Positions 3,451 to 55,254 of a stretch of DNA of 64,000 nucleotides are shown here, piece after piece. Position 1 is the stretch's first letter. Every line of letters begins with the position of its first letter. A program made the translations under genes and the position numbers. Origin of the DNA: Coniochaeta sp. PMI_546 (lineage: Eukaryota; Ascomycota; Sordariomycetes; Coniochaetales; Coniochaetaceae); the NCBI GenBank assembly GCA_021432605.1, contig MU271143.1, forward strand, positions 4,101,277-4,165,276. Direction: 5' to 3'. The notes beneath the pieces are model-generated. The model was given only the letters and a program-made list of their open reading frames with translations, did no database searches and had not been told where the DNA came from.

Positions 3451-5023
3451 ATGATGGGAAACTTCCACGTCTTCTCGCTCGACGCACCCAACCACTTGAA
3501 GGACCACAAGAAGCGGAAGCCACACAAGAAGACCAAAGGAGGATGTCTGTGCTGCAAGGTCAAGAAGGTGAAGGTATATGCGTCGAATGCGCGTGTTCGG
3601 TCATGGCAGGTTAGACTGACTACGGCAGTGTGACCAAACGAAGCCCATCTGTGTCCGATGTCAGCGTAATGGGCTCCCGTGCTCATATAATGGCACGACG
3701 TCGTCTTCATCGCCGTCGTCGGCCTTGTTGCCAACGTCGTCAACAGGGTCAACAGGCTCGAGCCAGCGCCTGCCCCGGTCCCTTTCCTTCTCTCTGTTCC
3801 CGCCGTCGGATCCGTCATGCGGTACCCCGCCCCAGGCACTCCTCCACCACTTTGAGCTCAACTGGGCCTCAATCTTTGTGCTTCCCAACCTCGGCATACC
3901 CACCGCCCTTCAGACTCCCCTAGTACACCTCGCAGTCGGCCGTCCGCATCTCCTCAGTGCTCTCTTGGCCGTCTCGGCTGCTCACCTCCGCCACCATGCT
4001 CCCAACCCGAACTCCCATCGACTGGCAGAGCACTTCCAGCAAGCCATCGCGCTGCGCTCCTTCAACGAGCTCATATCCAAGCCCATGTCGTCTCTTCCCT
4101 CTGGCGAAATCGGCATCTTGCTCCTGACTGCCATCCTCTTCAACCTCCTCACATTTGCCCTGCCGGCAGACGAGGATCCTGCCCCTGGCGCTGCGGCAGT
4201 GGCACCGGACCAGGCAGATCCAGACCCCGCCCGCTCCTGGGTCTTCAGCACGCGGCCTACCCGTTTAGACTGGCTCGCCGTCCAACTGGGATTACGAGAG
4301 CTCGTCATTGCTTCCTTGCCGTACCGTGACCTTTCGCAAGACTGGGGGGAACACAAACACCGCGACCCCCTGACGGAGGCTGAGGCCAGAGACGCAGCCC
4401 TCCCGCCCGACGGTCCGGAGCTGGATGCTCGCGTCCCAGACGCATGGTTAGAGGTTTTCGGAATCGGCAGGAAGCCGCTCAAGGGGTCACGGAAGCGGTG
4501 TCTCCTCGATCCCCTGGAGAAGAGGAAATTGCGGAAGAAGGAGCTGATGCTGATAGATGAGGACGAGGAGATACGCGATTATCTCTTCCGCGAGCCGCTG
4601 TTCCTCCTGGCCGAGACGAGGGAGTTCGCCCCGACCATGGCCAACGTGTTCCACTACTTTCAGTTCCTGGGCAAGCTGGAGCCCGAGCTCAAGACGCTGC
4701 TCTACGACAGGGATCCGCGGGCGATGTGGGCGTTTGGGTACTGGCTCGGCTTGGTCTGCCGGTTCGACTATATCTGGTGGGTGACGCGGCGGGCTAGGCG
4801 CGACTTCACCGCCATCGTCATCTGGTTGCGGAGCAGTGGTCTGACCGATCGACCTGGGAGGGAGGGGTTGCTGTGGACCGAGATGATCAGGGATCTGGAG
4901 GAGAGCTTGCATTGGACGCCGTCCGGGGAGGCAGTGAAGTCAAAAGTATGGGGGCACCCTGGACGTGCCTTGGACTGGATCCAAGCACCATCACCCTTCC
5001 CGCTTGACAACCAGTGCGTTTGA
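3451..5023 (+). CDS. Zn2Cys6 fungal transcription factor
   Basis: Two exons, 3451-3573 and 3629-5023, with a 55-bp GT-AG intron, giving 505 residues. The intron splits the DNA-binding domain. Joined, the cluster has Cys at 32, 35, 42, 49, 52 and 59, which is exactly C-x2-C-x6-C-x6-C-x2-C-x6-C, preceded by a Lys/His-rich basic stretch (KPHKKTKGG). The rest resembles the fungal-specific regulatory region of sterol-uptake (UPC2)-like factors: HFELNWASIFVLPNLG, then a helical segment LLSALLAVSAAHLRHH and a long alpha-helical C-terminus. There is an extra Cys inside the first loop (C-L-C-C). The start is the first in-frame ATG, followed at once by a second. The protein is expected to be a nuclear DNA-binding regulator; its targets cannot be read from the sequence. 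It could regulate the divergent HET gene, but nothing here shows that. Confidence 0.88.
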
Positions 5024-5422
5024 ATGAGAACATGGAGTTATCACAAATACTTCAGCGCTTGCGACCGTCTTGCATGGCACATGGGGGCACTCGGCCGTGG
5101 GGTTGTGATCTCACATCCTGCGTTGTGCTTCGCGGAAGAAACCTTAATGCGTCTCGGTGGCTCCATGAGCTCACTCTGAAGCCAGATGTTTGTATGTATG
5201 GAACCAGGCCAACATCGCCTAGGTGTTTGCGGAGCATTTATATGGATACCGTGTTACTTATATCAGGTGCCCGCAACAACCGGCCTACTATGTGAGGTCT
5301 TCCTCTTGTGGCTCTCTTAATGCTCGTCACTTTTGGCCACGTCTTCTTCGAACGCAAGGACGACGACTCACAACATTACCAGCACCACCAGTAAGGACAC
5401 CACGCAAGCTCAACCAAGAGCC
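5024..5422. other. Intergenic
   Basis: About 400 bp between the Zn2Cys6 stop and the small gene at 5423. I see no supported feature. Confidence 0.35.
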
Positions 5423-5801
5423 ATGCCCTCGACAAAGTCCTCCCTTGGCGATAAGACGAACCAGACGGTCGACAAGGCAGGCTCGCACATGACCCAAGAC
5501 ACGCACGCCACCGACCCGCGGCCCGAGGACTTGCCCTTTGACGCCTTGCCCGGCACGGACGAGGAGTTCGGCGTCCACGCGGCAACGATGCACGTCGAGC
5601 CCAGGCCCAGGTCGCACTCACAGCCAGAGAAGAGGGCGTCGGAGCGGTTCGGCGATAGTATCGAGGGCGTACTGCTGAGGTTAGTCAATGCTTCCAAGTG
5701 CGCGCGCGCGCACACACTCACATTGTGTCGGTCTGGGAGTGTGGAGGTATATGGAGGTTATGTGTCTCTCTGACTGACTCGCGACTCCTGACAGTGGCTG
5801 A
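5423..5801 (+). CDS. Small acidic protein of unknown function
   Basis: An ATG at 5423 opens a frame with strongly GC-biased third positions running to a splice donor at 5680 (exon 5423-5679). A branch-like CTGACTGAC and an AG at 5793-5794 suggest a second exon of only a few codons ending at TGA 5799-5801, for about 87 residues. A later AG at 5810-5811 would give a slightly different tail (RDMILSLLF). The protein is hydrophilic, rich in Asp, Thr, His and Pro (PEDLPFDALPGTDEEFGV), with no signal peptide or membrane segment. I do not recognise it. The intron contains a short alternating CG/CA tract around 5700-5716. Codon bias is the main reason to believe it is real. Confidence 0.5.
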
Positions 5802-23218: not shown

Positions 23219-24115
23219 TCAGCTCCCCAAAAACGCATCAACCTCCTTGAAAAAAGCTTCCCTCTTCTCAATCCAAGGAAAATGCCCACACCCATCAAAC
23301 ACCACCAGCCTAGCCCCAGAAATCGCCTCGGCCACCGCCTTCCCAGCAACAAGACTGCACATGGCATCCTCAGCGCCCCAGACAACAAGCGTCCTGGCCT
23401 TCACCAGCCCGCCGTCCGCGACGTGCGGACACCTGTTCTCGAGCCTGCGGTCCAGCGGGCCCTGGCGCAGGAAGGCCCACACCCGCGGCGGCGTGAGGTC
23501 GGGCGTGATGTGTCTCCGCAGCGTGTCGACGTGGCTCAGGTCGGAGAAGTACCACGGCAGGATGGTGTCCATCATCTGGGCAAAGGCCTCGTCCGTCTGC
23601 GGCGGAGACTGGAAGGCGCTCGTCAGCCCCGCCACGGCGGGGCCGTAGTAAGGGTCGTCTTTGCGCCTCGCCGCCCAGCTCTGGAAGTTGTCGTTTGGCG
23701 GAGCGTCTTGGATCTCGGCGTCGATGAGGATCAGGTTGCGGACCCGGTCAGGGTATTGCTCCGCGTAGCGGAGCACGATGCACGCCCCGTTGGAGTGGCC
23801 CAGCAGCGCCGGGATCGAGTCCAGGCCGAGGTGCTTGCGGAGGTGCTCGATGTCGGCGGCCATCACCCTGCTCGTCATGGCGTTCTCGTCTGCGGGCTTG
23901 CTGCTCTGGCCGTTCCCGCGCGGCTCGAAGTAGACGACCGTGTGGGACTTCTCGAGATGCGGACCCATGCCGTTCCACAGGTAGGAGCCCGGCATGCCCC
24001 AGCCGACGGAGTGGGCGACGAATATCGGGCCCGAGGTCCCGCCCACGCGGTAGTGGAAGGTGATGCCCTCCGCCTCGAAGAAGTGGTCCCCTTCTGTTAA
24101 GGTTGGTTGTGTCAT
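23219..24115 (-). CDS. Alpha/beta hydrolase (prolyl-iminopeptidase-like)
   Basis: A single exon of 298 residues from ATG 24115. The fold's signature elements appear in order: FVAHSVGWG after the first strands (oxyanion region), YFEPRGNGQSSKP, the nucleophile elbow GHSNGAC with Ser near residue 104, an acid in WGAEDAM near 250 and the His in GCGHFPWIEK near 276. A mostly helical cap lies between about 140 and 225. There is no signal peptide, so it is probably cytosolic. The YFEPRGNGQS motif resembles proline iminopeptidases and related S33 hydrolases, but cap sequences decide the substrate and I cannot assign one. All three catalytic residues are present. Confidence 0.88.
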   Translation of the reverse strand: MTQPTLTEGDHFFEAEGITFHYRVGGTSGPIFVAHSVGWGMPGSYLWNGMGPHLEKSHTVVYFEPRGNGQSSKPADENAMTSRVMAADIEHLRKHLGLDSIPALLGHSNGACIVLRYAEQYPDRVRNLILIDAEIQDAPPNDNFQSWAARRKDDPYYGPAVAGLTSAFQSPPQTDEAFAQMMDTILPWYFSDLSHVDTLRRHITPDLTPPRVWAFLRQGPLDRRLENRCPHVADGGLVKARTLVVWGAEDAMCSLVAGKAVAEAISGARLVVFDGCGHFPWIEKREAFFKEVDAFLGS

Positions 24116-25732: not shown

Positions 25733-26464
25733 CTACGACCCCTTCGCACGCAATATCTCCTTCAGCGCGGCCGTCTCAGCCTCCTGCCGTGCCAGCTTGA
25801 TCCGCAGTTCGTCCCGCTCCGACTTCAACTTGTCCACCGTGTCCTCGAGCTCCGCGATACGATCGATCCGCTTCTGGCGGTACTTGCGAGCCGCGAGAGT
25901 GTTGCGTTGCCGCTTGAGGGCGACGGTAGGGTCGTCTTTGGACTTGGGTGAGTACTCACTGTACTCCATAGAGGGGGGCGGAAGAGGCGACACTTGGACA
26001 GAGCTGCCGCCGCTGTTTGAGACTGGTGGGATGAATGGTATTTGAGTGTCAAGTGGTAGAGTGAATGGAGACGTCGACGTCGACTCCTGGACAAAGAGAT
26101 CTGATTGTAGATATGTTTGGAGGGAAGTGTCTGAGGTGTGGTCAGTCACAGATGAGTCAAATGAGTCAAACGAGATATGCGGCGCAATCTCACCATCAAA
26201 TTCGGGGAAGGGAGGCGTATTAAAGCTTGTGACTGGATAACCATCGACCTGATCCTGCACACCAACAACGCCGTAGCTCAAGGCATCGTCACCGAAGCCT
26301 TGAGACCACGGGTCCCCGCAAGCCGAGAGGGCATTATAAGTCGCATCCCCGGCCCAAAGGCCGGGCTGCCCTCCCAGCCAGATGTCGCTAGTGAGTGAGG
26401 GTGTTGAAGACGCGCAGGCACGGTCGACAGAAGTCGACGAAGGCCTGACGGCATGCTCCGGCAC
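25733..26464 (-). CDS. bZIP transcription factor (5' end unresolved)
   Basis: The C-terminal 60 residues are a clear bZIP: basic region LKRQRNTLAARKYRQKRIDRI with the Asn-x7-Arg core, then leucine-zipper heptads (AELEDTVDKLKSERDELRIKL). The region before it is acidic and Ser/Thr/Asp-rich, as expected for an activation domain, with short direct repeats (FDSFDSS). The open frame from about 26464 lacks an ATG. The only nearby ATG, at about 26489, is in another frame, so an upstream exon or an indel is likely. The coordinates given are the supported coding part only. It is divergent from the SDR gene about 1 kb away and may regulate the sugar-acid cluster (inference only). The basic region resembles GCN4/CPC1 relatives, but subgroup assignment is unsafe. 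Confidence 0.8.
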   Translation of the reverse strand: MPEHAVRPSSTSVDRACASSTPSLTSDIWLGGQPGLWAGDATYNALSACGDPWSQGFGDDALSYGVVGVQDQVDGYPVTSFNTPPFPEFDGEIAPHISFDSFDSSVTDHTSDTSLQTYLQSDLFVQESTSTSPFTLPLDTQIPFIPPVSNSGGSSVQVSPLPPPSMEYSEYSPKSKDDPTVALKRQRNTLAARKYRQKRIDRIAELEDTVDKLKSERDELRIKLARQEAETAALKEILRAKGS

Positions 26465-27513
26465 TTGATCCTGTGGCGGTCGGCATCTTTGCAGAGTCTT
26501 GCGGCCTCTTTGCGCGAGGCCGGGAGGACTATTAGGGTGTCGTCGTTGACAAAATGGCTTCTACGGCCAGAATTTTGTTTAAAGAAACAGAATCAAGTTT
26601 GCCACGATTGGGCACAATGAGACGACTTTAAATACCCCGCAGGAGCGCGGCCAGAACGAGTTCGGGTGAGGCGCACTGCGCGAATGCCGATGGGCGTCCC
26701 TTCCATTCCTTCGATATGCAAATGCACGGTTTTGCACAAGAAGCTTCTTCGTAAGGTACGTACCGGTCACCCCACCCATTTCTCCAATGCACCCTGCCCT
26801 CCCGTCCTTCTCGAATATTTCAATGCCTTGCAGCAACTGGTACACTAGGTCTGTTGCACTGCCCTGTCCCTTCGTACGAAATGGTACACAGCATAACAAG
26901 GCTGATGAAAACTTGGCCGAGGAGCTGCCAAGCCACAGCCCGCCGGGTGAAGCAGTAGGTGTCCTGCTTAGTTCATCTCGTATGCTGCGGTACGATAATG
27001 CTCATGGTACACTGTGTATTCTTCCAATATTGTTAAAACGCTCCTCCAACCTGTCTCACCATCTACATCCATGATGCTGCGATCGATAAATCCGGGCTTC
27101 GACATCTAGGACCCCGGATTTGAGTCCGGACTTGAGTCCGGATTTGGGACTGGAAGTTCGAGACTATGCCGTCAAGCCCGGGTTTGCGCGGAGCTATGGC
27201 AATCTCGCTGATCAATTCATTCACGCATCGCTCTAAGAGTTGTGCTGCGTGATGCCGGAGACCCGTCCATATGGCGACTGGCGCAAGTTTTGCTCTGTAA
27301 GCAGTGTAGGAACTTGACGGTTCGCAGACACCTCTATGCCCCTCTAGTCTTCTTTGGCGAAGAGGAGATGAGGTGTTATATGAACTCGGCAAGATGGCTG
27401 GCGGTATAAAGACCGTCGTAGAGAACAACATGTTTGATCTTGTAAACTGCAGAATCACGACAACGATTTTACATCTACAATACACAGAACAACCGATTAC
27501 CTAACAGCTAAAA
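26465..27513. other. Intergenic, divergent promoter region (bZIP/SDR)
   Basis: About 1 kb between the bZIP coding region and the SDR start. It probably includes the missing first exon of the bZIP gene and the SDR promoter. The phased CCGGA/TCCGG half-sites at 27115-27142 are listed separately. Confidence 0.4.
27115..27142. promoter_or_regulatory. Phased CCGGA-N6-TCCGG inverted repeats
   Basis: Two overlapping inverted repeats share a half-site: CCGGA-TTTGAG-TCCGG at 27115-27130 and CCGGA-CTTGAG-TCCGG at 27127-27142. The core repeats every 12 bp. CGG/CCG pairs with fixed spacing are the usual binding sites of Zn2Cys6 regulators. It lies about 370 bp before the SDR start codon. Confidence 0.35.
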
Positions 27514-28417
27514 ATGGCAGCAGACACCCTCTCACTCGCCGGCAAGGTGGCCATAGTGACGGGCTCCGGCCGCGAGAACGGCATCGGCGCGGCCATAGCC
27601 CTTGCCCTCGGCCGCAACGGCGCCAGTGTAGCAATCAACTATGTCTCAGACAGCTCTGCCTTTCGAGCAGCGAAGGTTGCCGAGAATGTCCAGGCTGCTG
27701 GCGGTCGGGCTACCGTTGTCCAAGCCAATGTCGAGACGCCAGAGGGTGCGAAGAAGCTCGTCTCCGAGACACTGGCGGCGTTTGGGTCGGAGAAGATCGA
27801 CATCTTGGGTGAGTACTTTTGTTCTTAGAAGGACCAGTCACTTCAGGTGCTGACTGCAATAGTCAATAATGCCGGCAACGGAGTCGGCCAAGGCAAGGAC
27901 CTGGTAGACCTGACGCCGGAAGAGGTGTACAAGGCGTTCGCAGCCAATACCTTCACTACCATCTTCGTATCCCAAGCAGCGATCCCGCACATGTCGAACG
28001 GAGGAAGGATTGTGAACGTCGGGACTGTGGTGTCCCGGATGGCACTCCCTGCCTGCTCGGTGTACGGTGCCAGTAAGGCGGCTCAGGAGTACCTCACTAC
28101 AGCACTTGCAATAGAGGTTGGCCATTCTTGATTCTTGTACAACCCTGACCATCACTGACGGTCTATAGCTCGGCAAAAGCAAGGGCATCACGGTCAACAC
28201 AGTTGCACCCGGACCGACCAGGACTGATGCCGTGACGTGGTTCCCGGAGGTCCCTGTGAGAAACATCGTGGCCAAGAAACTCCTCGATGGTGTACTGCTG
28301 GAGGAAAGACCGGGCGAGCCAGAGGAAGTCGCTGATGCCGTGTTGCTCGTCGTGTCAGACCAGGCTCGCTGGATTACGGGGCAGTACGTGGCAGCCAGCG
28401 GAGGTGTGACTGCCTAA
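27514..28417 (+). CDS. Short-chain dehydrogenase/reductase (classical SDR)
   Basis: Three exons, 27514-27808, 27863-28116 and 28169-28417 (introns of 54 and 52 bp), giving 265 residues, normal for classical SDRs. The Rossmann motif is VTGSGRENGIG (residues 15-25), a fungal variant of TGxxxGIG. NNAG spans the first splice junction near residue 100, and YGASK near 168 supplies the catalytic Tyr and Lys with a Ser upstream in GTVVSRM. NAPG-like TVAPGPTRTD follows. It should be a cytosolic NAD(P)-dependent oxidoreductase. The start is the only suitable ATG. It converges on the aldolase gene, with 99 bp between stops, and sits beside a sugar-acid dehydratase, so oxidation of a sugar or reduction of a keto sugar is a reasonable guess (inference). 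Substrate cannot be read from sequence alone. Confidence 0.92.
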
Positions 28418-28516
28418 CTGCATATCGTCGTCGATAATCAGCATGTAACACTAGTCGCGAGAAGCTTTGATAGGGACCAATTTGCACAATCATTATTTTG
28501 TTTTCCACTCATAACA

Positions 28517-29565
28517 TCACAATGAAGCCTCCGACTTCTCAATATCAGTCAGATACGCCTTCTTCAACCCCGCCCACTCCCCATCCGCCAGCCGCCCCTT
28601 GAGCGGCAGCCTCCCGCCCTCGTTGAAGCCCAGCCCGGTGACGCGGTACACCGCGTCCTTGATACCCACCACGCCCGTCTTGCCGATGAACTCCTCCGCC
28701 TTGCTGACGATGTACTGCAGCCGCCGCGCCTCGGCCAGGGCGGACGCGTCGCCCGAGCTCGCCTTGGTCACGGCGTTGAACAGCGCCACGACGGTCTTGG
28801 GGTAGATGGCCGCCAGGCCGTCGATGACGCCCGCGGCGCCGAAGACCACGATGGGGCCGAGCTGCTGCCCGAAGCCGCTGTAGACGCGGAACTTGTCGTG
28901 GTCGATGTTCGGGTCGAGGGATACTTGAACGTGGTGGCTTACGTTGCCGTGCGACATCTTGCAGCCGACGATATTGGGGTGGGCGGCCAGGGTGGTGTAG
29001 GTTTCGGGTGTGACGAGGACGTTGTTTGTCACACCAGGATAGTTGTAGCTGCGCACGCGCGTGAGTATTATAACCCGTGTTAAACGAATGAAGGGGGAAA
29101 AACGAACATGAGGATAGGTATCGGGCTGTTATCGGCGATAATGGTGTACCACTCCTTGATATTGTCTTGGTTCGCACTAACACCGAAATATCCCGGCACG
29201 AGCACCAACCCCCACTGTGCGCCCGCCTTCTGATAGTCTTGGAGCCACTCCAGCGTCTCGTCGATGCCGTTCGTCAAGACACCGGCCATGATGGGGTAGT
29301 CTGGGAATCCCGCATCGTCGAGGCCCTTGCGCACGCCGGAGACCAGCGCCAGACGCTCCGCCCGGTTCAGGTGGATTGCCTCGCCGGTCGAGCCGAGCAG
29401 GATCAGGCCCTTGATGCCGGCCTTGGCGAGAAAGACGCTGTGGCTTACTTGTGCCTCGACGTCTACTTTAGCTTGTAGCTGGCCGGCGGATTTTGCTTCT
29501 GCCGAGGGGCGGTAGAATGTCGGTACCGGGACGTAGACGCCTGGTGGGGGTGCTGTGACGGACAT
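28517..29565 (-). CDS. Dihydrodipicolinate-synthase/KDG-aldolase family lyase
   Basis: Two exons, 29108-29565 and 28517-29048 (59-bp intron), giving 329 residues. The splice joins PIPIL to IYNYPG, restoring the family motif with the active-site Tyr. The Schiff-base Lys is in VGCKMSHGN near residue 180, and GSTGEAIHL near residue 60 is the GxxGE substrate-carboxylate loop. Members are class I pyruvate aldolases of TIM-barrel fold. Fungal representatives cleave 2-keto-3-deoxy sugar acids or hydroxyoxoglutarate rather than making lysine, since fungi use the aminoadipate route. It shares a 560-bp divergent promoter with the galactonate-dehydratase gene, which supports a 2-keto-3-deoxy-acid aldolase role (inference). 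No targeting signal is seen; the start is the first ATG of the frame. Confidence 0.9.
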
Positions 29566-30127
29566 GGTTGGGGTGGTGTTGTGTTTGTGGTCGGTCGAGA
29601 AAAGGGGTATCACGATTCGAATTACTTGCCGCTGAGAGAACTGCCTTCTTCCCTTGTCTCTTGAGTGCGAATCTCTACCACTTTAATGTGTTGAGACGAT
29701 GACGATATCCCGATGTCGCATATGTAAGTGGTGTAAGTACCCCACAGTTCGGCAGTCAATACCACGAGCTCAGGCCGGCCGCCCCTCGGCACCTGAGCGA
29801 TCGGCGTTCTGGTTCATTGGTTACGGCGTCCGGATCTACGACCGATATAGGGCCAATTTTGCAAATCTGGGCCGTCGGTTTTGTTCTTAAGAAGAACAGG
29901 TGCAGCCTGTTCCAGTGGTGATAATTGTGTGTATTTGCATTGCATCGGTTTAACCCTTCAAGCCCCGGACGACGACCGACGTTCGAACCCGGTCCAAGCT
30001 CTCGGCTTATCTGCTCCCGAACCAATTCGGCTGCCGAACCCGCATCGCCTTTCACACCGAACACTGCCGCTGTCGCCGGCCGATTTGATAGCCCGGAGTA
30101 GGGAGATTGCCGGTATAGACAGCCAAG
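29566..30127. promoter_or_regulatory. Divergent promoter of the aldolase and dehydratase genes
   Basis: 562 bp between two start codons pointing apart. It contains three CCAAT-type boxes (ATTGG near 29816, CCAAT near 29853 and 30022), which are typical targets of the fungal HAP/CBC complex. It also has CCGGA cores near 29830 and 29965 and the nested palindromes at 29883-29912. Motif function is inferred. Confidence 0.45.
29883..29912. promoter_or_regulatory. Nested palindromes, candidate operator
   Basis: GTTCTT-AAG-AAGAAC (29883-29897) overlaps GAACAGG-TGCAG-CCTGTTC (29894-29912). Both arms are perfect. It lies near the middle of the divergent promoter, where one regulator could control both genes. 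Confidence 0.35.
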
Positions 30128-31452
30128 ATGGGTAAGATAGCCACCATGGAATACTTCCGCGTGCCGCCGCGCTGGCTGTTTGTCAAGATCACGGACGAAG
30201 ATGGCAGTGTCGGATGGGGAGAGGCGTCCCTAGAAGGCCATACACAGGCCGTTGAGGGGTGTTTGGATGGCTGGTTTGATCGGTACAAGGGGATGGACGC
30301 CGAGTAAGTTCATGTAGCCGCAGGCTGTGAGCAGAGATGCTGAACATGATATATCGAAAAAGTCAAATCGAGCATATCTGGCAGATGTCATGGCGCACAA
30401 GCTTCTACCGTGGGGGCCCCGTATTCATGAGTGCATTGGCCGGTATTGACATCGCCCTTTGGGACCTGAAAGGTAGGTCGCACGGAATCAGATCGTGACC
30501 CAATAGTGTATGGTGCTGATGATATCACCGCAGCGAGAAAGCTTGGTGTGCCCATATACCAGCTCCTCGGAGGCAAGTTACGGGATAAGATCAAAGTATA
30601 TGCTTGGATAGGAGGCGATCGGCCAGGAGACGTGGAAATTCAAGCGTATGTCCCTCTTCCATTCCTTGCTTTGGCTGCCGACATGCAAGCTTACGGCCCA
30701 GCAGTCTGGCTCGCAAGTCTCAAGGTTTTACCGCAGTCAAGATGAATGCGACGGAAGACCTTGGCTGGCTCGACTCCCCGTCCGCACTAACTGGCTGTGT
30801 AGAGCGCGTGAAGGCGGTCAAGGCGCTCGGTATGGACGCGGGCGTCGACTTTCACGGGCGTGTGCATAAGCCAATGGCGAAGCAGCTAGCTCGAGCACTC
30901 GAACCGCACAGTCCGTTGTTTATCGAGGAACCGCTGCTGTCCGAGCACCTGGGAGGCATCGAGGCGCTAGCTGCGCAGACGAGCTGCCCGATCGCCTTGG
31001 GTGAGCGCCTGCACAGCCGGTGGGAAGTACGACCATTCTTGGAGCGTGGTTGTGTGGATATCCTGCAACCTGATATCGCACATATTGGCGGTATCTCCGA
31101 GATGCGTCGTATCGCTGCTATGGCTGAGACGTACGACGTTGCTATTGCGCCGCACTGTCCGCTTGGTCCGATCGCCTTGGCCGCGAACTTCCAGGTCGAT
31201 GTGTGCACGCCCAACTTCGTTATCCAGGAGATGAGCTTGGGCATTCATTATAACAACACTGGGCAGGATATCACGAGTTACATCAAGAACCCGGAAGTGT
31301 GGAATGTCGAGGATGGCTATGTGGCGATGCTGTCCGGCCCGGGGTTGGGGATCGAGATCGATGAGGAGCAGATCAGGGCATTGTCAACGGACGCGAAGCC
31401 GTGGATCAGTCCAGGATTTATCGGTCCGCATGGAGAGATCCGAGAGTGGTGA
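30128..31452 (+). CDS. D-galactonate dehydratase-like enzyme (enolase superfamily)
   Basis: Four exons, 30128-30303, 30363-30472, 30534-30645 and 30705-31452, with introns of 59-61 bp, giving 381 residues, almost exactly the length of bacterial DgoD. The N-terminal capping domain has [32 protein letters not shown] and IDIALWDLK. The barrel carries the metal ligands Asp in VDFHGR near 181, Glu in FIEEP near 207 and Glu in LGERLHSR near 233, and the general base in APHCPLGP near 281. These follow the galactonate/mandelate-racemase-family pattern closely, including the HGR and HCPLGP motifs. The expected reaction is dehydration of an aldonate (D-galactonate by family) to 2-keto-3-deoxy-galactonate. 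It is divergent from the aldolase, its logical next step. In fungi the better-known dehydratases of this superfamily act on L-galactonate or L-rhamnonate, so the exact sugar acid needs testing. Confidence 0.9.
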
Positions 31453-36768: not shown

Positions 36769-38103
36769 TCAAGTCAAGGTCTCATTCCAAGCCTGCCAGA
36801 ACTGGTTCTCCCAATTCGGCATACACTTGACACGCTCAGGTGGCGCGAGCTGCCAGTCAATGGCCTCGTCGACATGACCAGGTCCACTGACCCATTGGGA
36901 GGTATACCCTTTCGCTTCCTTGATCTTCTTCGCTTGCTCATCCGTGTACTCGAGGTTGACGGCCGGTACCGTAGCGATCTTGCCGTAGCCGTGGAACCAC
37001 ATATCCTTGCAGAAGAGTTGGGGTTCGCCCTGACCACACTCCCCAAGCTCCTTATTCGGAGCCCGGAATCTGATCGTCTTCTCCACTATCGGCTTTGCTG
37101 TGAAGGCCACGGCTCCGTTCCAGCAAGAGAAGACCTGGAACGGTTGGTGTGCTGAGAATCGCGACTGCGCTTCGGCATTGTTCCAGAAAAGATTCCAAGC
37201 CGAGTTCCAGTTCCCGTCGGGCGGTATCTCGAAGAACGAATCGCCGTTCATGCCGCGCGCTATCCACACGTCGTAGAAGGTCGGATCCCTGCCGACATAG
37301 GTCCAGTCCATCGCGCAAGTCATGTCGGCGCCCAGGAACTGCCGTTGGTGAACCAGCTCCAGTATGTCCTCGTGGCATATGGCCACGTCGTTGAGGAAAA
37401 CAACCGTCGTGTTGCTGCTATAGCGCTTCTCCTCCTCTAACAACGGTTGGAGGGCCATGTTCCGCAGCTCGGCCAGTCTCGCTATCCTGTCGCCTTCGCT
37501 TGAGGTGAAGTTGCTGGATTTGAAGTAGTATGTCGTCGTCAGTGCGTCAAGTCCTGGGCGCAGGGCAGCCAGGACCTCACCGGTCCCGTCCTCCGAAGGG
37601 CCCTCTATGATGGAGAGAGCACATTGTTCAGGGCCAAGAAATTTTATGACTTCCACTACACTACCAATGAGTCGAGGAAGGAGGCCGAGACATTGCCGTA
37701 GGTCTAGCGCGAAGAAGTATTGTATAGTTGGAGACTGTGAAGGCACAGTCCTGAGGTAGTCATACCTCGCAGCGTCCAACTGTGGACAGACCAATCGAGG
37801 CAAATGTGTTGCTTGAGCATCGAGGATCGCGTCCAGATAAGCTGTTATATTTGCAGGCGACAGAACACCAATTACTACACCTTGTCAGCTAACCCTACCA
37901 ACTATAGAGGGCGGGCTTATGGACATACTTTGCGCAGTGTCATTTTTGGCTACTTCGTTAGGTTCACCATGTGCGGACCCGGGGAGGAAAGAAGGGACTT
38001 GAAGACGCGTCAGCTTGTCGCGACCAAGATAAAGACTAAACGATATAAGAACAAGACATGTTATCTGCCCGGCGATGAGTATTTTCGCCCGCATCGACGG
38101 CAT
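36769..38103 (-). CDS. CAP59/CMT1-type alpha-1,3-mannosyltransferase (GT69)
   Basis: Two exons. Exon 1 is 37929-38103; exon 2 ends at 36769. It starts at 37880 (48-bp intron, 428 residues) or at 37841 (87-bp intron, 415 residues): both keep the frame, and the branch-like GCTGAC favours the longer intron. The N-terminus has a short cytosolic part and one membrane anchor (ILIAGQITCLVLISFSLYLG), so this is a type II Golgi protein. The catalytic region carries family motifs: RYDYLRTV, IQYFFALDLRQC, LLPRLIGSVVEVIKFLGPE, SIIEGPSEDGT, FLNDVAICHEDILEL, MDWTY and VFSCWNGAVAF. CMT1 relatives add alpha-1,3-mannose to surface glycans. It is divergent from the mucin-like protein gene at 38653. Function by family only. 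Confidence 0.85.
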
Positions 38104-54396: not shown

Positions 54397-55254
54397 ATGT
54401 CGCAGACCCACGGTTCACCGGAAGGTCCTGAGCCTCTTGAGGAAGCTAGCATGGCCAAAGCAACTGAAGAGTTGCAGTCGATGATCTCTACATCAGCCCT
54501 CCCGCCTCGCAAGCCCGGTGCTCCAAAGCCAACTCCAGCCAAGCCAACTCCAGCCAAGCCAACTCCAGCCAAGCCAACTCCAGCCAAGCCAACTCCAGCC
54601 AAGCCNNNNNNNNNNAAGCCAACTCCAGCCAAGCCAACTCCAGCCAAGCCAACTCCAGCCAAGCCAACTCCAGCCAAGCCAACTCCAGCCAAGCCGACTC
54701 CAGTCAAGCCGGCTCCTGCCAAACCCAGCCCTCACGGTGTTGGATCGTCGTCCGGTGGTCCAAGTGTGTCGAAAACCACGCCTGCAGCGCCGCAGCTTTC
54801 TACAAGCAAAGAGCTCATTCCCGGCCCTAACTATCGGCGTCCCTCAACACCACCAGCCCCGGCTCCGCGGCCCCCTCGTCCCGATATCCTTCTTCTCGAC
54901 ATCACCCCGATCAGCCTCGGCATCGAGGTTGCCGGCGGGCTCATGAGTAAGATTATCCCACGCAACACAACAGTTCCCACACGAAAGTCCGAGACTTACT
55001 CCACGTACGCGAACAACCAAACCAGTGTCATCATCCAGGTGTATGAAGGTGAGCACCAGATGTGCCGGGACAACAATCTGCTGGGAAAGTTCGAGCTGAG
55101 CGGCATTTCGCCAGCGCCGAGGGGAGTTCCGCAGATCGTGGTTCAGTTCGACGTCGACGCAAATGGCATCCTGACCGTTAATGCCACGGAAAGAACGGCA
55201 CGGCAGACCAATCCCCTCAGGATCTCGAAGGACCAGTGGTTACATATGGGTTGA
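54397..55254 (+). CDS. Orphan Hsp70 substrate-binding domain with KPTPA repeat
   Basis: A single exon of about 285 residues (an assembly gap at 54606-54615 makes the true length uncertain). Residues 1-45 are an unremarkable helix. Residues 46-110 are a run of Lys-Pro-Thr-Pro-Ala repeats. From about residue 164 the sequence is the beta-sandwich half of the Hsp70 substrate-binding domain: [17 protein letters not shown], then [20 protein letters not shown], then [40 protein letters not shown]. It stops at DQWLHMG, before the helical lid, and there is no nucleotide-binding domain anywhere upstream. The protein therefore cannot be an ATP-driven chaperone by itself. It could bind peptides passively or act as a decoy (inference). 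No signal peptide. Confidence 0.85.
54529..54703 (+). repeat. 15-bp coding tandem repeat (Lys-Pro-Thr-Pro-Ala)
   Basis: About eleven near-identical copies of AAGCCAACTCCAGCC, in frame with the Hsp70-domain gene. Copies differ only at the ends, so expansion is recent. Ten N residues at 54606-54615 fall inside it. Confidence 0.9.
54606..54615. other. Assembly gap (10 N)
   Basis: Ten undetermined bases in the 15-bp repeat. Ten bases are just what would complete one repeat unit, so frame is kept, but gaps of fixed size are also conventional and the real copy number is unknown. Confidence 0.95.

Follow-up and report, generated by a model that had tools for sequence, protein, structure and literature searches.

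A divergent dehydratase-aldolase gene pair in Coniochaeta sp. PMI_546 as a candidate for two steps of a non-phosphorylating D-galactonate pathway

We analysed a stretch of 64,000 nucleotides from the fungus Coniochaeta sp. PMI_546 (assembly GCA_021432605.1, contig MU271143.1, positions 4,101,277 to 4,165,276 of the forward strand; hereafter the window), in which an aldolase gene and a dehydratase gene point away from each other. The dehydratase is very probably a D-galactonate dehydratase of the DgoD type, and we consider it reasonably likely that the two enzymes act one after the other in a D-galactonate pathway without phosphorylation. An earlier note, made from the letters of the window, had described adjacent genes for a short-chain dehydrogenase/reductase (SDR), an aldolase with Tyr and Schiff-base Lys, and a dehydratase with metal ligands. 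This description was confirmed by splicing, motifs and Pfam, and all three genes are intact after splicing, at these positions:

27514-28417, + strand: SDR gene, 265 amino acids (aa), three exons, introns 27809-27862 and 28117-28168, YGASK kept; pathway membership uncertain
28517-29565, - strand: class I aldolase gene of the dihydrodipicolinate synthase (DHDPS) family (PF00701), 329 aa, two exons (29565-29108 and 29048-28517), intron 29049-29107; candidate 2-keto-3-deoxy-D-galactonate aldolase by its presumed substrate
29566-30127: divergent intergenic region between aldolase and dehydratase, 562 bp; candidate shared promoter
30128-31452, + strand: gene of the probable DgoD-type D-galactonate dehydratase, four exons (30128-30303, 30363-30472, 30534-30645, and 30702 or 30705-31452), introns 30304-30362, 30473-30533 and 30646-30701 or 30646-30704; product 382 or 381 aa

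The introns of all three genes are GT-AG introns of 52-61 nt, and the Pfam families above cut-off are PF13378 and PF02746 for the dehydratase, PF00701 for the aldolase, and PF00106 and PF13561 for the SDR. The order SDR (+), aldolase (-), dehydratase (+) is not co-directional, a point that the earlier note had omitted: 99 bp lie between the ends of the SDR and aldolase genes, and 562 bp between the starts of the aldolase and dehydratase genes. Since these two starts face apart and the SDR gene has an upstream region of its own, aldolase and dehydratase are best treated as one divergent unit, which the SDR gene adjoins. The 562-bp region is a candidate shared promoter by analogy with Aspergillus niger, for which passages of PMC5306355 describe the divergent sugar-acid pair gluD/gluE (455 bp) and the similarly clustered gaaA/gaaC. 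The acceptor of the last dehydratase intron is a CAG-CAG pair, the first CAG giving 382 aa and the second 381 aa; the second is likelier because the first adds one residue where all 75 bacterial rows of our alignment have a gap.

The DgoD-type identity of the dehydratase, as the earlier note had proposed, rests on family scores, kept motifs and a tree. Over its whole length the protein scored 513.2 bits with the NCBIfam model NF010624 'galactonate dehydratase' (cut-off 311), while the ten other listed families all stayed far under their own cut-offs, the best of them reaching 232 bits against 750. The closest PDB chain was 3rr1, 'Putative D-galactonate dehydratase', at 391 bits. The motifs (numbered on the 382-aa product) are DFHGR at 182-186, LGERL at 232-236 and APHCPLGP at 282-289, whose residues (Asp/Glu/Glu, His) we take to be the metal ligands and the catalytic His. 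Residues D182, H184, E208, E234 and H284 are the same in the dehydratase and in 75 of 75 bacterial rows, and of the 89 columns in which 97% or more of these rows agree, 86 are kept, D257 included.

The tree comprised 79 rows, with 27 of the 106 available rows dropped (locus L134 and 26 of the weaker matches, most of them from Chloroflexota) and the window dehydratase as its sole fungal sequence; the bacterial dgoD loci had been retrieved using short peptides of that dehydratase itself. The window protein was nested within the DgoD sequences of Caulobacteraceae, Sphingomonas and Lysobacter (support 97/96 for 30 rows and 99/100 for 43 rows). Its terminal branch is long (0.72), and the fork nearest to it is weakly supported (86/63). 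These nearest bacterial relatives and their kin, in 42 of 80 loci, are 59-67% identical to it. A phylum-wide draw gave 27 matches above cut-off among 299 genomes, and of the 25 compared (leaving out L133, from the same genome as L018, and L135, which is partial) 24 were 47-53% identical and one 35%. This placement fits a transfer of the dehydratase gene from bacteria; contamination is unlikely given its introns and its position on a 4.3-Mb contig.

A search of the genome (33.48 Mb, 24 contigs) for dehydratase kin gave four matches: the window gene, two more of the same kind, and a match (L017) that by eye is the glycolytic enolase. The gene on contig C15 matches L-fuconate dehydratase structures at 423-426 bits, human ENOSF1 at 457 bits and, best, an unspecifically named chain at 491 bits, and is likely of the LGD1/GaaB type. 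The gene on contig C19, scored as a fragment, reached 385 bits with L-rhamnonate dehydratase (cut-off 393). The window dehydratase itself scored 108 bits with the L-rhamnonate dehydratase model NF011968, under its cut-off of 393, and among its best 60 of 165 PDB rows no chain was named as an L-fuconate dehydratase, which speaks against a FucD/LGD1 identity; it is the C15 gene that has such structures among its close matches. The earlier note had said that a grouping with rhamnonate or L-galactonate dehydratases would refute its reading; scores and tree show no such grouping, and the relatives of L-fuconate and L-rhamnonate dehydratases are the separate C15 and C19 genes. We therefore reject L-galactonate, L-fuconate and L-rhamnonate identities on family scores, tree and separate genes elsewhere in the genome. 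The SDR adjoining the C19 dehydratase best matches the L-rhamnose dehydrogenase Lra1 (339 bits, cut-off 400); together with a nearby Zn2Cys6-like frame recognised by eye, this region (L012, C19 69000-78900) resembles the known LRA cluster.

We then turn to the aldolase. It scored 107 bits with PF00701 (gathering cut-off 22.1) and carries the Tyr (IYNYPG) and the Schiff-base Lys (GCKMS) of its class; aldolases of the GaaC/LGA1 type share the DHDPS-family fold. The genome has five DHDPS-family genes (six matches, two of which are exons of the window aldolase). The window protein is 33-36% identical to each of three intact paralogues, which are 41-47% alike, and has KMSHGN where they have KLTCGN or KFTCGN, differing also at the SADF/MCDF motif. 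These differences place it on a branch of its own, and by the same comparison the ordinary GaaC is likelier to be among the three paralogues than to be the window aldolase. Its position beside the dehydratase suggests that it takes a D-form keto-deoxy acid. Relatives were found in four of five bacterial genomes searched (28-31% identity) and none was confirmed in viral contigs. The fifth family member (C3; L016, ~4300-5540) is legible only in pieces, lacks Lys at the expected place, and may be a pseudogene or a non-aldolase.

In the scheme that we propose, the dehydratase would convert D-galactonate to 2-keto-3-deoxy-D-galactonate and water, the aldolase would cleave this acid via its Lys Schiff base, yielding pyruvate and D-glyceraldehyde, and glyceraldehyde could reach glycolysis through a DAK-type kinase whose gene lies at another place in the genome; the SDR might produce galactonolactone, a doubtful step and the weakest part. 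We infer the substrate of the aldolase, the co-regulation of the pair and the supply of D-galactonate. The chance of a dehydratase and an aldolase with midpoints within 2.5 kb is ~0.002, calculated from three sugar-acid-type dehydratases, five DHDPS-family genes and 33.48 Mb for a pair chosen after being seen. The absence of phosphorylation in the scheme agrees with the gene content: the genome gave no match to DgoK (PF05035) or to the 2-keto-3-deoxy-6-phosphogluconate (KDPG)-type aldolase (PF01081), whereas of 14 control genomes 2 and 8, respectively, were positive in the same searches. The model for kinases of 2-keto-3-deoxygluconate (KDG) and 2-keto-3-deoxygalactonate (KDGal) found one weak stretch (25.7 bits, cut-off 440), making phosphorylation by a PfkB-type KDG/KDGal kinase unlikely, and a DAK-family (glyceraldehyde/dihydroxyacetone-type) kinase is present at 338 bits.

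Several observations pull the other way. The aldolase was above cut-off for no NCBIfam model, and one DHDPS-family model listed for it, under whose cut-off it falls far, describes enzymes acting on phosphorylated acids; the genome also has six stretches matching PfkB-family kinases. Three further intact DHDPS-family genes could catalyse the same step. A galactokinase-type gene is present, so the Leloir route is probably open and a non-phosphorylating route probably not needed for galactose use. Relatives of the window aldolase were found in 0 of 80 bacterial dgoD loci (tblastn, E 1e-5; 51 loci hold at least 20 kb and 8 less than 10 kb), and the bacterial loci therefore do not independently back the pairing. 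The kilobase upstream of the SDR gene and the aldolase/dehydratase region shared no more words than shuffled sequences did (13 8-mers against 17.0 shuffled, one 9-mer against 4.5, and none of 10-12 letters).

The earlier note had taken all three genes as one oxidative De Ley-Doudoroff-like route, in which the SDR would be a D-galactose 1-dehydrogenase, the lactone would open spontaneously or by a distant lactonase, and dehydratase and aldolase would follow. We regard this full cluster as doubtful. Of 42 bacterial loci of the alpha/gamma type (L018-L056, L060, L066, L068), 39 offer 1 kb of sequence after dgoD, and in 26 an SDR gene is the next one downstream. An SDR therefore fits D-galactonate chemistry; the bacterial protein is possibly its own type of galactose dehydrogenase. 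The same genome moreover pairs its Lra1-like SDR with an L-rhamnonate-type dehydratase, as the LRA cluster does in passages of PMC12028159. However, none of the 38 remaining loci has an SDR directly after dgoD, and the window SDR scores just 52-89 bits against the bacterial dgoD-side SDRs. Its own matches are generic: of 220 SDR families, the 25 listed as best were all under cut-off, the top one being a 'glucose 1-dehydrogenase' subfamily at 168 bits against 215, and the best PDB match was a carbonyl reductase (150 bits). In an otherwise ordinary protein, Thr153 replaces the Ser of the catalytic tetrad, with Tyr and Lys kept, whereas the nine bacterial dgoD-side SDRs inspected (of 26) all have Ser. 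The gene has its own upstream region, and an SDR within 3 kb is a ~3% event by chance (165 first-look SDR candidates in the genome, 18 of them scored). Thus the dehydratase stands as DgoD-type, the aldolase is a plausible partner and the absence of DgoK and of a KDPG-type aldolase agrees with the proposed route, but the family scores, the Thr for Ser and the lack of excess promoter words do not support the SDR as galactose dehydrogenase, and its membership is uncertain.

Seven proteins chosen from two related bacterial loci (L018 and L045) were scored. Above cut-off were a sugar porter, encoded in L018, and a galactose-1-epimerase, encoded in L045; a kinase in L045 was nearest to the KDG/KDGal kinase models, yet under their cut-offs.

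The region upstream of the SDR gene contains a repeat:

27114-27154, upstream of the SDR gene: three copies of CCGGATTTGAGTCCGGA spaced by 12 bp, 100, 94 and 82% identical, with CGG-N8-CCG

The repeat is possibly a putative regulator site. Besides the three occurrences of CGG-N8-CCG upstream of the SDR gene, one lies in the aldolase/dehydratase region (29831), no more than a lead since the spacing was chosen after looking; no direct repeats were found in the shared aldolase/dehydratase region. A bZIP regulator gene (25733-26464) lies ~1 kb upstream of the SDR gene in the opposite direction and is a possible candidate regulator.

A lactonase would serve the full cluster, and the earlier note had seen none. 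This holds for the window, but relatives of SGL-type lactonases occur at three other places in the genome (one with a TGA within its matched stretch, perhaps an intron), and the window has this gene 3.4 kb upstream of the SDR:

23219-24115, - strand: alpha/beta-hydrolase gene, 298 aa

The hydrolase is above general Pfam fold cut-offs and far under every NCBIfam cut-off among those listed; its best PDB match is an esterase (53 bits), with a 3-oxoadipate enol-lactonase at 34 bits. These scores do not support a lactonase role.

A second alternative is that the aldolase serves another pathway, acting on the L-KDGal or 2-keto-3-deoxy-L-fuconate (L-KDF) of the galacturonate and fucose routes or on 4-hydroxy-2-oxoglutarate, and adjoins the dehydratase by chance. 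The fold shared with GaaC/LGA1-type aldolases and the lack of a specific family assignment leave room for this, as does the far greater activity of the aldolase LGA1 on L-KDF given in passages of PMC12370193, where A. niger GaaB is likewise more active on L-fuconate than on L-galactonate. We consider it unlikely, given the small chance of such a pairing and the absence from the window aldolase of the motifs that its paralogues have. Enolase-superfamily enzymes often accept several substrates, but a dehydratase that is promiscuous or of another sugar-acid type (D-gluconate, D-fuconate, L-rhamnonate, L-fuconate) is very improbable in view of the family scores, the tree and the separate L-fuconate-type and L-rhamnonate-type genes.

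A non-phosphorylating route as such is not new to fungi. The earlier note had named the Leloir and oxidoreductive routes as the usual fungal ones, which is incomplete: section 17 of a 2022 sugar model (PMC9781776) already credits A. niger and five further fungi with a non-phosphorylated De Ley-Doudoroff route. It assigns multi-copy dehydratase genes but describes the enzymes for the penultimate step, that of the aldolase, as "still elusive". Passages of a 2024 review report pathway activities in A. terreus and cite a 1991 description of D-galactonate and galactose breakdown without phosphorylation there (PMC11219438); a 2001 description for A. niger is cited in parts of PMC8113861 and PMC12028159. 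According to passages of a 2021 study, a different fungus was given two genes from A. niger, one for its D-galactonate dehydratase and one for a 'KDG aldolase'; there the aldolase without a kinase cost the recipient its growth on galactose and an added kinase gave faster galactose use (PMC8113861). That 'KDG aldolase' counts against simply calling the gene of this step unknown. Among the matches listed in the literature searched (titles, abstract starts and selected passages), no such dehydratase/aldolase pair was found.

As in the fungal route of A. terreus and A. niger, the aldolase of the proposed scheme would act straight after the D-galactonate dehydratase, with no kinase in between; the window differs in offering a candidate for the elusive enzyme, divergent to the dehydratase. 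The A. niger D-galactonate dehydratase, reportedly the subject of Motter 2014 (cited in PMC8113861), is likewise described as a fungal enzyme of this activity. Bacterial DgoD loci have a dehydratase up to 67% identical and often the downstream SDR, but all 80 lack a relative of the window aldolase, and the L045 kinase points towards KDG/KDGal kinases. The fungal GaaA-GaaB-GaaC and LGD1-LGA1 routes also lead through dehydratase and aldolase to pyruvate and glyceraldehyde, with gaaA/gaaC clustered in A. niger, but they use L-series substrates, and here the gene that is likely of the LGD1/GaaB type (C15) is distinct from the window dehydratase. The LRA cluster shares with the window an SDR adjoining an enolase-superfamily dehydratase but has other subfamilies of both; according to passages of PMC12028159, most fungi, A. 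niger among them, have its aldolase gene outside the cluster. In the passages of PMC5722872, the Bipolaris cookei 'galactonate dehydratase' region has an aldehyde dehydrogenase, a dioxygenase and a peptidase, a neighbourhood unlike that of the window.

Taken together, the new part would be a candidate gene for the fungal aldolase step of a route already known. The divergent pair is a readily testable, named candidate for the step left without a gene in the 2022 model (PMC9781776), and would help annotators of fungal genomes to distinguish aldolases for D-form keto-deoxy acids from those for the L-form. As to origin, we tentatively suggest a composite: a fungal ancestor may have gained the D-galactonate dehydratase from an alphaproteobacterium-like donor, without the bacterial kinase and phospho-aldolase, and the gene may have come to share a promoter with that of an aldolase already resident, a DHDPS-family protein diverged for the D-form keto-deoxy acid, which would make this aldolase the unassigned fungal EC 4.1.2.51. 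If the dehydratase is bacterial in origin, it exemplifies gene transfer feeding a mixed pathway.

Around the three genes, the window also has Zn2Cys6, bZIP, PF11790 and pectin lyase genes, which together with the short GT-AG introns fit a filamentous ascomycete. The pectin lyase gene matches pectin lyase A at 302 bits across its first exon, and the gene between it and the three-gene group belongs to the PF11790 family, presumably GH128 as the earlier note labelled it. That note had linked the proposed route to both by clustering; the link amounts to adjacency. Elsewhere in the window, 36769-37803 holds a CAP59-type mannosyltransferase gene (PF11735, 250 bits), and 54397-55254 a frame rich in KPTPA repeats, broken by ten N (54606-54615), possibly an unresolved assembly repeat.

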